Below are positions 9,408 through 46,544 of a stretch of DNA of 51,079 bases, in pieces (the stretch's first letter is position 1; each line of letters begins with the position of its first letter). Under the pieces are notes generated by a model, which was not told the origin of the DNA, did not search any database, and saw nothing but the letters and a program-made list of their open reading frames with translations. This DNA is from a bacterium (GTDB taxonomy: Bacteria > Gemmatimonadota > Glassbacteria > GWA2-58-10), in contig JAJFUG010000177.1 in the NCBI GenBank assembly GCA_021372515.1, forward strand, positions 1 through 51,079. Direction: 5' to 3'. A program made the translations under genes and the position numbers.

Positions 9408-9440
9408 AAAAAAGCCGGGCCGAATTCCCGGCCCGGCTTT
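9408..9440 (-). terminator. Rho-independent terminator of HTH/AbrB-like gene, copy 1
   Basis: AAAGCCGGGCC pairs with GGCCCGGCTTT (11-bp arms, 8-base loop). Read on the minus strand the stem is followed by a run of six T. It lies 21 bp after the stop of the 9461-9772 gene. An almost identical terminator follows the paralogue at 27101-27131. Confidence 0.85.
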
Positions 9441-9460
9441 CAACCTCTTCCGGCAAACAC

Positions 9461-9772
9461 TCACACCTTGGTCAGCGTGATCGTGCCGCCTTCAATCGAC
9501 ATCTCGAACTGATCGCCCTGCTTGAACTGAGGTTCGAGCTGGGCGCGGGGGATGATGAGCCCCATCTTGGTCAGCTTGCGGTTGCCGGTCGAGCGGGCGG
9601 ACATGCCGGCCACCTGAAGGACCTCGCCCTTCTCGATCATCACATCGGCGAGGGCAACTTTAAACGCGGCTTTATTTTTTATTCCCAACTCGCTCATTAT
9701 CGCCTGGGCGCTTTTGCCGGCTTTCACAAGCTTATACAGTTTTGCCTTGTCTATACCTTTTCCTCTGGGCAT
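9461..9772 (-). CDS. Small HTH plus AbrB-like DNA-binding protein, copy 1
   Basis: The 103-residue protein starts MPRGKGIDKAKLYKLVKAGK. The N-terminal half looks like a helix-turn-helix (LVKAGKSAQAIMSELGIKNKAAFKVAL). The C-terminal half (GLIIPRAQLEPQFKQGDQFEMSIEGGTITL) resembles a SpoVT/AbrB swapped-hairpin strand pattern, so a DNA-binding regulator is the best guess; this is fold-level inference. The ATG at 9772 is chosen because AGGAGG lies 6 bases upstream; a frame extension to 9802 is not needed. A near-identical paralogue lies at 27156-27467 with matching promoter and terminator. A palindrome overlapping the -10 box (9818-9839) suggests autoregulation. Confidence 0.8.
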   Translation of the reverse strand: MPRGKGIDKAKLYKLVKAGKSAQAIMSELGIKNKAAFKVALADVMIEKGEVLQVAGMSARSTGNRKLTKMGLIIPRAQLEPQFKQGDQFEMSIEGGTITLTKV

Positions 9773-9817
9773 TGTAACCTCCTGTGATTGAATGATTGAC
9801 AAATCGTCTTAATATTA

Positions 9818-9862
9818 ATATTGAATCTAAATTCAATATATGCTAACAGAGAGAATAATCAA
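9818..9862 (-). promoter_or_regulatory. Promoter and palindromic operator of HTH/AbrB copy 1
   Basis: On the minus strand TTGATT (9857-9862) and TATATT (9835-9840) form a -35/-10 pair with 16-bp spacing. A perfect inverted repeat, ATATTGAAT-CTAA-ATTCAATAT (9818-9839), covers the -10 box and the likely transcription start, the position expected of a repressor operator. The same -35/-10 layout and the intervening ATTCTCTCTGTTA are conserved at the paralogue. Confidence 0.7.
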
Positions 9863-10333: not shown

Positions 10334-10757
10334 ATGCCGAGGAAACAGAAAGCTGCGAACCAGTCCACCGGCCTGACGGTCGCGGGGAACCTCCGCCCGC
10401 ACCGACCGATGCGATCCTGGAGAGTATCTCCGACGGTGTTTTCACCGTAGAGGCAGACTGGCGCATAACCTCGTCTAACCGCGCGGCCGGGGAGAACACC
10501 AGGATCAGCCGGTAGGACGCCCTCGGCCGCCTGTGCCCGGAGGTGCTGCGCTCCAGCATGTGCGAGAGCGAGTGCGCCCTGCGGTGCACCCTCGGTTCGG
10601 GCCGTCCGGTTATCGGCAGGGCCTGCTACATAATCGACGCGGAGGGCGGGCGTATCCCGATCAGCATCTCCACCGCGGTGCTGCGGGACTCAAACGGGCA
10701 GGTGATAGGAGGGGCGGAGACGTTCCGCGACCTGAGCGAGAGCGAGTCAAGGACTTG
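10334..10757 (+). pseudogene. Remnant of PAS-containing sigma-54-type regulator
   Basis: The stretch starts at ATG 10334 (MPRKQKAANQ...), shifts frame around 10390-10400, then reads AILESISDGVFTVEADWRIT, hits TAG at 10513-10515, and continues DALGRLCPEVLRSSMCESEC to ISISTAVLRDSNGQVIGGAETFRDL near 10740. This is the N-terminal PAS domain, with its Cys-containing CESECAL segment, usually found in front of an NtrC-type AAA+ domain and Fis HTH. Both of those domains are missing here. It has a frameshift, a stop and a 3' truncation, so it is a dead gene. The homology is recognised from family knowledge and was not searched. Confidence 0.75.
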
Positions 10758-11250
10758 GGAGATTTTCCCGGGTCCTTTTTCTTTTAGTGCAATCAATCAT
10801 CCCCACACCATACCCCACAAGCCCGGAGTATTCCCAAGGTAAACACGGTCTGTATGTGGACTGATCCAAAGAGGTTCTTCCGATCCGTCCAACCTGTCCG
10901 GAAGTCTTGCCCACAGGGCGGGTTCGCCGTCCCGACAGGCAGGCGTTCCCGCCCGATCTCTCTTATGCGGAAACCTGGAAACGATCGTCACCGGCAGTAA
11001 AAGATGGGGCTGGGACCGGTCAAGATCGTACGCCTCAACGCCCGGCCTCAAGACCAAACTTGACTTTATCCAGGACTGCGATTTTAATAAGACTGCCCAT
11101 AAGCAAAGAACAGCCTCATCCGGTTGTATCACAATCTCCGCCCGTGTCTTTTTTCAGTTCCGCCGGCAACCGGTGTTTTTTTTGTTTCCATGGAACAGAT
11201 CAGCGTTATCGAAAAATGGTCTGATTATTGCTTTATGTGAGGTTGTCGCC
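10758..11250. other. Spacer before the large sensor kinase
   Basis: About 490 bp without a gene that I can support. Open frames on both strands look like chance frames. The kinase promoter probably lies in the T-rich part near 11150-11230, but no clear -35/-10 pair stands out. Confidence 0.35.
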
Positions 11251-27100: not shown

Positions 27101-27131
27101 AAAAAAGCCGGGCCGAATTTCCGGCCCGGCT
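27101..27131 (-). terminator. Rho-independent terminator of HTH/AbrB-like gene, copy 2
   Basis: AGCCGGGCC pairs with GGCCCGGCT (9-bp arms, 8-base loop), with six T after the stem on the minus strand. It is the counterpart of the terminator at 9408-9440 and 25 bp from the stop at 27156. Confidence 0.85.
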
Positions 27132-27155
27132 GTAACCGTATCTTCCGGCAGACAC

Positions 27156-27467
27156 TCACACCTTGGTCAGAGTGATCGTGCCGCCTTCGATCGACATCTC
27201 GAACTGATCGCCCTGCTTGAACTGAGGTTCGAGCTGGGCGCGGGGGATGATGAGCCCCATCTTGGTCAGCTTGCGGTTGCCGGTGGCGCGGGCGGACATG
27301 CCGGCCACCTGCAGGACCTCGCCCTTTTCGATCATCACATCGGCCAGGGCCAGCTTGAGCGCGGCCTTGTTTTTGATCCCCAGTTCGGCCATTATCGACT
27401 GGGCGCTTTTACCTGCCTTAACAAGCTTGTACAGCTTAGCTTTGTCGATACCTTTCCCTCTCGGCAC
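27156..27467 (-). CDS. Small HTH plus AbrB-like DNA-binding protein, copy 2
   Basis: This 103-residue paralogue of the 9461-9772 product has identical layout and only a few substitutions (for example AQSIMAELGIKNKAALKLAL). It would act as a small DNA-binding regulator, with a possible swapped-hairpin AbrB-like C-terminus. GTG 27467 is chosen because GGAGG lies 5 bases upstream and the product then lines up with copy 1 from PRGKGID; an ATG 12 bases upstream overlaps the ribosome-binding site. Promoter, spacing and terminator are conserved with copy 1, so the whole cassette was duplicated. It sits between unrelated genes, convergent with DUF4832. Confidence 0.8.
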   Translation of the reverse strand: MPRGKGIDKAKLYKLVKAGKSAQSIMAELGIKNKAALKLALADVMIEKGEVLQVAGMSARATGNRKLTKMGLIIPRAQLEPQFKQGDQFEMSIEGGTITLTKV

Positions 27468-27522
27468 TAAAACCTCCAATGGCTGATGTTGGATTGGCTG
27501 CCTTGTTATTGATTCTCAATTC

Positions 27523-27550
27523 AATATATATTAACAGAGAGAATAGTCAA
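27523..27550 (-). promoter_or_regulatory. Promoter of HTH/AbrB copy 2
   Basis: On the minus strand TTGACT (27545-27550) and TATATT (27523-27528) are separated by 16 bp. The spacer ATTCTCTCTGTTA is shared with copy 1. The inverted repeat seen at copy 1 is only partly kept here (TTGA...TCAAT around 27509-27525). Confidence 0.7.
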
Positions 27551-44637: not shown

Positions 44638-44915
44638 GCCCCGTGTAACGCCCAGGGCGCATGTTCCGCAGATGAAAGTCCAGTCCCACCCCTGGGCTGT
44701 CAACCTGCGCAGGTGTATCCTGCCGCTTGTCCACCCCTGTTGCGCCGCGGCAGGGGCGCCGCCTGTCCCCCGCTGGAAAAAACCTAATCCACCGCTGACG
44801 AATTAATGAATAATGTTGTGCATAATTCGTCTTGGAGATTATAATATGTGCACGCCCGCCTAAGCCGCCGACAAGCGGCAATGCCGCCCAACCCCGCACC
44901 CGGAGTGAGACGCCG
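44638..44915. promoter_or_regulatory. Promoter region of tandem secreted genes with inverted repeat
   Basis: This 278-bp gap has GCCCAGGG (44650-44657) and CCCTGGGC (44690-44697) just after the HD-GYP stop, a possible end structure. ACGAATTA (44798-44805) and TAATTCGT (44823-44830) form an 8-bp inverted repeat, with TATAAT at 44840-44845 as a -10. The -35 is weak (TTGTGC, 44816-44821). The repeat covers the -35 area, where an activator or repressor dimer could bind. Confidence 0.5.
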
Positions 44916-45710
44916 ATGAGAGCCGCCGCATTAATCCCGGTTTGTCTGCTGCTGTTCACCGCGCCGTACTGCCGCGCCCAGAGTGAGGATTCGTTGCTGA
45001 TACTGCAACACAAGCAGATGGTGGCCGAGCTGGACTCGCTCCACGCTGACTATCTGAGGGCCTGCCAGGCGGCCTCGGCCGTCGACTTTGTCAACCTCGA
45101 CCAGAGGGCGCGCAAGCTCATCGGGCACTATCAGGCATTGGGAGTGACCGATACTCACAGGTACGACGAGAATCAGGAGAAGCGAAAGATTTGGGAGAAT
45201 TTCGATTTCGATAAGGTCGGCGACCTCGGTATGGATGTTGGGCATTATTCGGACGCAATCGACTATGGCGGCTACCTGCTCCGGGTGGCGGACAGCCTGG
45301 ACAGCCATTCCCCCCTGCGTAACTACACCCTTTATGCGGAGATTTGGGCTGAAACCGGTGAGGATGCCTGGTGGGGTGCGCCCGACATCGACCTGGCATA
45401 CCAGTATGAAAGGGAGTTCCCCCAGGGGCCGTTCATCGAACAGGTGCTGGAAATGATCGGTAATTGTAACACGGACCTTTATCACCACCTTGTCTGCGAG
45501 AAAAAGGGCGATGACGATTACCACGACTGCACGCCTTCCTCTTGCCCGGACCAGCCGCTTGATGTACAGATAGCCGCCGCCCGCCAGGAGGCGCTCAAGT
45601 ACTGGCAGCGTTTGAAAGTGCGGTATCCGTCCCGTCGCGCCGAGTTCAATGAGGAGATAGGGAGTTTAACAGAAGATGCAGTCTCTTCATGGCACTACTG
45701 CGCGGACTGA
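44916..45710 (+). CDS. Secreted protein of unknown function, tandem paralogue 1
   Basis: This 264-residue protein has a signal peptide (about 1-22; LLLFTAPYCRA-QS) and no recognised domain. The mature part is acidic, helix-rich in the first half (LDSLHADYLRACQAASAVDFVNL) and has four or more Cys near the end (GNCNTDLYHHLVCEK, HDCTPSSCPDQ, HYCAD), which could be disulfides. The product shares layout with the next gene (45759), with the same LFTAPYCRAQ signal and the same FVNLDQRAR/FVSLDQRAQ and YEREFPQGPFI/YEKEFPQGPYI motifs. ATG 44916 has GGAG about 9 bases upstream; the frame extends to 44832 without a site. Function unknown. Confidence 0.75.
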   Translation: MRAAALIPVCLLLFTAPYCRAQSEDSLLILQHKQMVAELDSLHADYLRACQAASAVDFVNLDQRARKLIGHYQALGVTDTHRYDENQEKRKIWENFDFDKVGDLGMDVGHYSDAIDYGGYLLRVADSLDSHSPLRNYTLYAEIWAETGEDAWWGAPDIDLAYQYEREFPQGPFIEQVLEMIGNCNTDLYHHLVCEKKGDDDYHDCTPSSCPDQPLDVQIAAARQEALKYWQRLKVRYPSRRAEFNEEIGSLTEDAVSSWHYCAD

Positions 45711-45758
45711 GCGCCGCCGGCCAGACCGTCCAAACCATCAACCACGCCCGAGGCCAGG

Positions 45759-46544
45759 ATGAAAGCCGCCGCAATCTTTCTGTCACTGTCTCTGCTGTTC
45801 ACCGCGCCGTACTGCCGCGCCCAGGAGGAGGACCCCGCGCGGCGGGAGGCTTACATTCAGTTCCTGGCGGGCCTGGACTCGCTGTGCGCCGATTACCAGC
45901 TTGTCCTCGAGGACATGTCCGTGGCGGCTTTTGTCAGCCTGGACCAGCGGGCCCAGCGCCTGATCGAGCATTACGATTCGCTCGGGGCCACCAACCTGGA
46001 AGCCTGCAACTCGGAGCACTACCCCGGCCTGCCGCCGTTCGATTCGGACAAATACGGCGACATCGGGTTCGAGGTCGAGTATTACAGCATAAATGTGGTG
46101 TACGACGGTCTTTTCCTCTGGCAGGCCCACCAACTCGACCCGGACTCACCGTTCCGCAAATACACCCTCTACGCCGCGATCTACGGCGATGAGGGCTACC
46201 TGAAATACGACTTGCCCAATATCGAGTTGGCTTTGCAGTACGAGAAGGAGTTCCCGCAGGGGCCGTACATCAGTGATGTTTTATACGTGCTGGGTGGGTT
46301 CTACCATGACAAATATTTTTGCCTGCTGTGGATGAAAGCACAGGACAACCGTTACGAATGCAGTTGCAGCTTCGATGAGACGGTGCACCCTTACCGGACG
46401 CTGGAGGAACAGATCGAGGAGACGAAAGCTCTGGCGATAAGCTACTGGGAGAAACTGGCGCGCTACAAGCCGCAGCTTTCCAGCGAGATCATCGGATGCA
46501 TCAACGCGGGGCAGGACAACCACTCGTTCAACTGCCCGGACTGA
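45759..46544 (+). CDS. Secreted protein of unknown function, tandem paralogue 2
   Basis: This 261-residue protein is a diverged tandem copy of the preceding one: signal peptide (cleavage near CRAQ), SLDQRAQRLIEHYDSLG helix, YEKEFPQGPYI, and Cys-bearing C-terminus (YECSCSFDETVHPYRTL, NCPD end). The repeated LAGLDSLCADYQ helix suggests binding helices. The spacing between the two genes is 48 bp and one transcript is likely. The pattern of paired secreted paralogues with conserved FPQGP motif is unassigned; no enzyme motif was seen. Confidence 0.75.
   Translation: MKAAAIFLSLSLLFTAPYCRAQEEDPARREAYIQFLAGLDSLCADYQLVLEDMSVAAFVSLDQRAQRLIEHYDSLGATNLEACNSEHYPGLPPFDSDKYGDIGFEVEYYSINVVYDGLFLWQAHQLDPDSPFRKYTLYAAIYGDEGYLKYDLPNIELALQYEKEFPQGPYISDVLYVLGGFYHDKYFCLLWMKAQDNRYECSCSFDETVHPYRTLEEQIEETKALAISYWEKLARYKPQLSSEIIGCINAGQDNHSFNCPD

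Follow-up and report, generated by a model that had tools for sequence, protein, structure and literature searches.

Two small genes on the same contig, whose protein products are closely similar, raise the questions of what kind of protein they encode, how their expression is controlled and how the pair came to reside in this genome. The window analysed here, a stretch of DNA of 51,079 nt, is one entire contig, and the two genes with their Shine-Dalgarno sites are placed in it as follows.

9461 to 9772, minus strand: gene copy 1, an open frame of 103 aa with an ATG start, carrying an N-terminal helix-turn-helix (HTH) and a C-terminal AbrB-like domain (family assigned by a profile-profile match)
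9776 to 9783, minus strand: Shine-Dalgarno site AGGAGGTT of copy 1 (sequence reading)
27156 to 27467, minus strand: gene copy 2, an open frame of 103 aa with a GTG start
27472 to 27477, minus strand: Shine-Dalgarno site GGAGGT of copy 2 (sequence reading)

The preliminary description had reported a near-identical pair of 103-residue genes 17.7 kb apart. Both genes are present, at a distance of 17,695 bp and with 94% identity between the proteins, but their divergence is distributed as a mosaic along the gene. No third gene copy was found in searches of the host's own genome (4.87 Mb, 99.5% complete). Upstream of copy 1, at window positions 10350-10800, lies an apparent decayed gene for a PAS-domain regulator, whose frame, as judged by eye only, is broken by a stop.

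The signals flanking the two genes were identified by consensus scan (promoters), sequence reading or pattern search (palindromes) and scanning with folding (terminators).

9835 to 9862, minus strand: promoter of copy 1, TTGATT (9862-9857), 16 nt, TATATT (9840-9835)
9831 to 9857, minus strand: 27-nt promoter block of copy 1, with 25 fixed positions exact in copy 2, including the ATTCTCTCTGTTA spacer
9818 to 9839: palindrome ATATTGAATCTAAATTCAATAT of copy 1, a likely operator, which overlaps both the -10 box and the presumed start of transcription
9410 to 9441, minus strand: intrinsic terminator of copy 1
27523 to 27550, minus strand: promoter of copy 2, TTGACT (27550-27545), 16 nt, TATATT (27528-27523)
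27507 to 27526: copy-2 palindrome TATTGATTCTCAATTCAATA, imperfect by one mismatch
27106 to 27131, minus strand: intrinsic terminator of copy 2

Both promoters are sigma-70-like, and the promoter block TATTCTCTCTGTTANNATATATTGAAT matches exactly between the copies. The terminators are GC-rich and fold at -31.2 kcal/mol (z -3.4) for copy 1 and at -30.1 kcal/mol (z -3.7) for copy 2; their stem pattern has no other occurrence in the window (0 expected). The start signals, promoter layout with its 16-nt spacing, spacer and terminator had been described earlier as common to the two genes, and all of these were recovered at both. A promoter-motif query had been proposed as a check for further copies; the genome-wide search with the promoter block at up to 3 mismatches returned only the two known sites. 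Each locus is most likely a self-contained one-gene transcription unit comprising promoter, operator, gene and terminator. An Rfam search gave no match. The upstream region has two DNA matches outside this genome that were judged to be chance similarities, one (on contig C29) lying within a coding gene and the other (on C113) preceding the terminator of another gene. At L013 (1502-1519 of G000:C113), 19 bp of the copy-2 promoter region recur exactly, directly before a terminator-like hairpin, and this match is probably fortuitous.

The inverted repeat noted earlier over the -10 box of copy 1 is indeed perfect at 9818-9839 (ATATTGAAT-CTAA-ATTCAATAT), and the one-mismatch counterpart at copy 2 is an addition to it. 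The pattern TATTGAATNNNNATTCAATA, allowed up to 3 mismatches, occurs at two sites in the 51 kb, one per promoter, as against 0.01 expected. An equivalent palindrome is absent from the relatives examined (see below), and the operator is therefore lineage-specific at best.

The identity of the proteins was approached through their relatives, since the window proteins alone have no significant match in Pfam, NCBIfam, PHROGs or PDB, and no close relative of the window protein turned up in collections of genome and viral contigs, phages and plasmids. A query composed to resemble a Desulfobacterota protein, and an alignment with rows of this kind, served as bait, solely to reach real records: the query retrieved an actual protein from a Desulfosarcina ovata plasmid, and the bait alignment seven more Desulfobacterales loci. 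The family alignments on which the conclusions rest (A3 to A8) contain real sequences only, and one comparison with an alignment that includes the window proteins was set aside as circular. Two viral matches to the D. ovata plasmid protein were rejected as short chance similarities in phage head genes. The window pair, left out of the alignment of the eight real Desulfobacterota proteins, matches it by hhalign over residues 1-102 (Prob 97.5, E 7e-12), and closer relatives occur in other genomes of the same phylum, such as L059, to which a window protein has 38% identity by BLASTP (E 1e-15).

The C-terminus of the relatives matches PF04014, PF14250 and TIGR01439, near or below the curated cut-offs, and individual relatives match HTH_20, GerE, HTH_7 and HTH_40. 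At its C-terminal end the family profile matches PDB entry 2glw (4.9e-5), and at its N-terminal end it has a weak match to the HTH of gamma-delta resolvase (0.064). Two low-confidence structural models (pLDDT 61.5 and 66) concur in three helices followed by strands; the top of the Foldseek list for such a low-confidence model consists of SpoVT, AbrB and MazE, at E 0.4-1.8 and probability up to 0.92, none significant singly. The original assignment of an HTH with a C-terminal AbrB domain is therefore supported by way of the relatives. The observation that this fold order was unfamiliar also stands, in that no named family model searched here describes an HTH followed by AbrB, although proteins of this kind are already in the databases under a generic AbrB/MazE/SpoVT name. 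No paper on this family was found in the open-access literature, and the weak PADLOC matches of its members are spread over unrelated models.

The Desulfobacterota HTH-AbrB proteins, such as WP_155326369.1 of D. ovata plasmid Do28_1, are collinear with the window proteins over the full length, with the same domain order and a similar size. They are often present in several copies per genome, some adjoining recombinases, and WP_155326369.1 is annotated only as an AbrB/MazE/SpoVT family DNA-binding domain-containing protein. They share 23-41% identity with the window pair, which differs from them in its shorter linker and its own palindrome. C-terminal AbrB proteins are already known in the cyAbrB of cyanobacteria (PF14250), where the AbrB domain likewise follows a helical region, and it is in this domain that the family profile matches Calothrix P0004; however, most of the N-terminal region does not align, and PF14250 has no match in the host genome up to E 10, so a cyAbrB origin was rejected. 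The predicted C-terminal swapped-hairpin fold resembles that of AbrB and SpoVT of Bacillus subtilis, in which the swapped-hairpin domain is N-terminal with no HTH before it. MazE and VapB antitoxins have the DNA-binding fold class predicted for the window proteins, which differ in carrying an additional HTH and in having no toxin partner in sight.

The age of the pair was assessed from the coding sequences. Over 312 positions these show 33 differences, mostly silent, of which 25 fall at third codon positions (dN 0.026, dS 0.50, dN/dS about 0.05). By these values the two copies are under strong purifying selection. Synonymous changes are concentrated in the 5' part, where they affect 21 of 60 codons; the 3' part has them in 2 of 42 (Fisher p 2e-4; the cut was placed after inspection of the data). 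An identical run of 95 nt between the copies was never attained in 20,000 permutations. The affected tract is delimited below.

9446 to 9589, minus strand: likely gene-conversion tract covering the 3' part of copy 1 and its 3' flank, with a nearly unchanged counterpart in copy 2 (27141-27284; alignment and synonymous-change test; 5' limit approximate)

The simplest reading suggested by this pattern is homogenisation of the 3' part by gene conversion; nucleotide-level constraint on that part is a possible alternative. A recent duplication, one of the two origins first proposed, was rejected on account of the dS of about 0.5 together with the mosaic silent divergence and the probable conversion. 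The history of the pair would rather comprise a long-ago duplication, strong purifying selection and partial homogenisation by gene conversion.

With these elements in place, the preferred reading, to which a probability of about 0.6 is assigned, is that each cassette encodes a two-domain DNA-binding regulator predicted to repress itself. A three-helix HTH (about residues 8-48) would be followed by a SpoVT/AbrB swapped-hairpin domain (about residues 65-103), and dimerisation would be expected from the latter. The protein would most likely bind the palindrome that covers the -10 box and start of transcription of its own gene and thereby shut off its own synthesis, and the copies probably cross-regulate each other, since both operators are retained. 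Autorepression, as suggested earlier, is plausible, and the palindrome conserved at copy 2 strengthens the case for it, whereas the imperfection of that palindrome was counted against it. A small unit that is autonomous, seems to regulate itself and combines two kinds of DNA-binding domain could reveal the role of such multicopy regulators.

Among the alternatives, a protein that coats AT-rich DNA generally, with low specificity and in the manner of a nucleoid protein, is very unlikely. Binding to AT-rich DNA with little sequence specificity is common among AbrB-type proteins, and about 200 bp of AT-rich DNA (27-34% GC, as against 60% in the contig) precede both copies, with a weak upstream similarity of the copies that reaches into this stretch and only marginally exceeds that of shuffled sequences; the conserved 20-bp palindrome and 27-bp promoter block, however, point to a specific site. 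It is most unlikely that the genes encode orphan antitoxins of the MazE or VapB kind, which formerly neutralised a toxin or act on one encoded elsewhere. The C-terminal domain family does include antitoxins (PF04014, TIGR02609), but neither window copy adjoins a toxin gene, unless a very small unannotated one, the genes are closed by terminators and an additional N-terminal HTH is present. The RelE/ParE toxin near the D. ovata relative is in the opposite orientation and has a CopG antitoxin of its own.

A third alternative, doubtful but with several observations in its favour, holds that the proteins regulate excision, integration or replication genes of integrative elements and that the window copies are leftovers after loss of the element. 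The relatives fall into two arrangements. Type a, a lone cassette closed by a terminator of its own, is seen at the window pair and at many of the relative copies examined, while members of the type-b branch lie directly upstream of two PF00589 tyrosine recombinases, with a Prim-Pol/AAA_25 protein (primase-helicase) nearby. The type-b arrangement speaks for regulators of integrative elements, as do the mobilizable plasmid that carries the D. ovata relative, the clustering of copies in variable regions of genomes G808 and G839 and the absence of the family from the remaining 394 host-phylum genomes sampled. Against it, the type-a relatives, which have the highest identity to the window pair, mostly do not adjoin a recombinase, none was seen in the window either, and the larger genes tested near its copies are of two-component, TonB, glycosidase-like and efflux types. 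It is improbable, further, that the whole promoter-gene-terminator unit is a dispersed, self-regulating HTH-AbrB cassette that spreads within genomes and links variable islands by homology, a spread perhaps aided by the tyrosine recombinases beside the type-b relatives.

The distribution of the relatives bears on the earlier suggestion of a family of dispersed small regulators, which holds for other genomes, namely Desulfobacterota with several copies each, but not here, where only two are present. Copies were found in 48 of 327 sampled genomes of the class of G791, up to 15 per genome, in the phylum of the Desulfobacteraceae genome UBA2174 (G398); in a whole-phylum sample at a stricter threshold, 8 of 395 genomes pass. 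Genome G808 has five copies that are 90-97% identical, four of them with a common hairpin terminator and all with differing flanks. Among the genes near the copies in these regions are some for STAND-type ATPase, DUF4365, ORC-CDC6-like and HATPase proteins, kinds that occur in variable islands. A family poorly fitted by Pfam and NCBIfam models nevertheless attains up to 15 copies in some sulfate reducers, partly beside recombinases in variable regions.

Two further observations were made in these genomes. The region G808:C4:1-80000 (L087-L090) contains island-like units with recombinases, Prim-Pol, XRE regulators and ATPases of putative defence-like role, each unit having one HTH-AbrB gene, spaced every 4-22 kb. 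At L098 (10778-12848), two conserved proteins of 302 and 366 aa without a Pfam match were noted, which recur near type-b recombinases in several genomes.

As to the origin of the window pair, the phylogenetic tree groups it with members of the class of G791 (support 99/97), where it branches outside these members and is separated from them by a long branch. No other full-length member was found among the 395 sampled genomes of the host phylum, the weak matches there being due to chance or to the C-terminal AbrB domain only. Because the full-length protein was found in the host phylum here alone, the gene was likely acquired horizontally from outside that phylum, and none of the sampled sequences is close to the putative donor.

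Two other features of the window lie apart from the cassettes. Positions 6-244 hold the end of a CRISPR array, cut at the contig end, with four repeats GTCGCCCCTCGCGCAGGGGCGTGGATTGAAAC placed 66-68 bp apart, the last of them degenerate; the repeat is presumably type I-C-like, judging from its appearance. At 44832-46544, two adjacent and mutually similar secreted-protein-like genes have a common start region of 41 bp with 93% identity.
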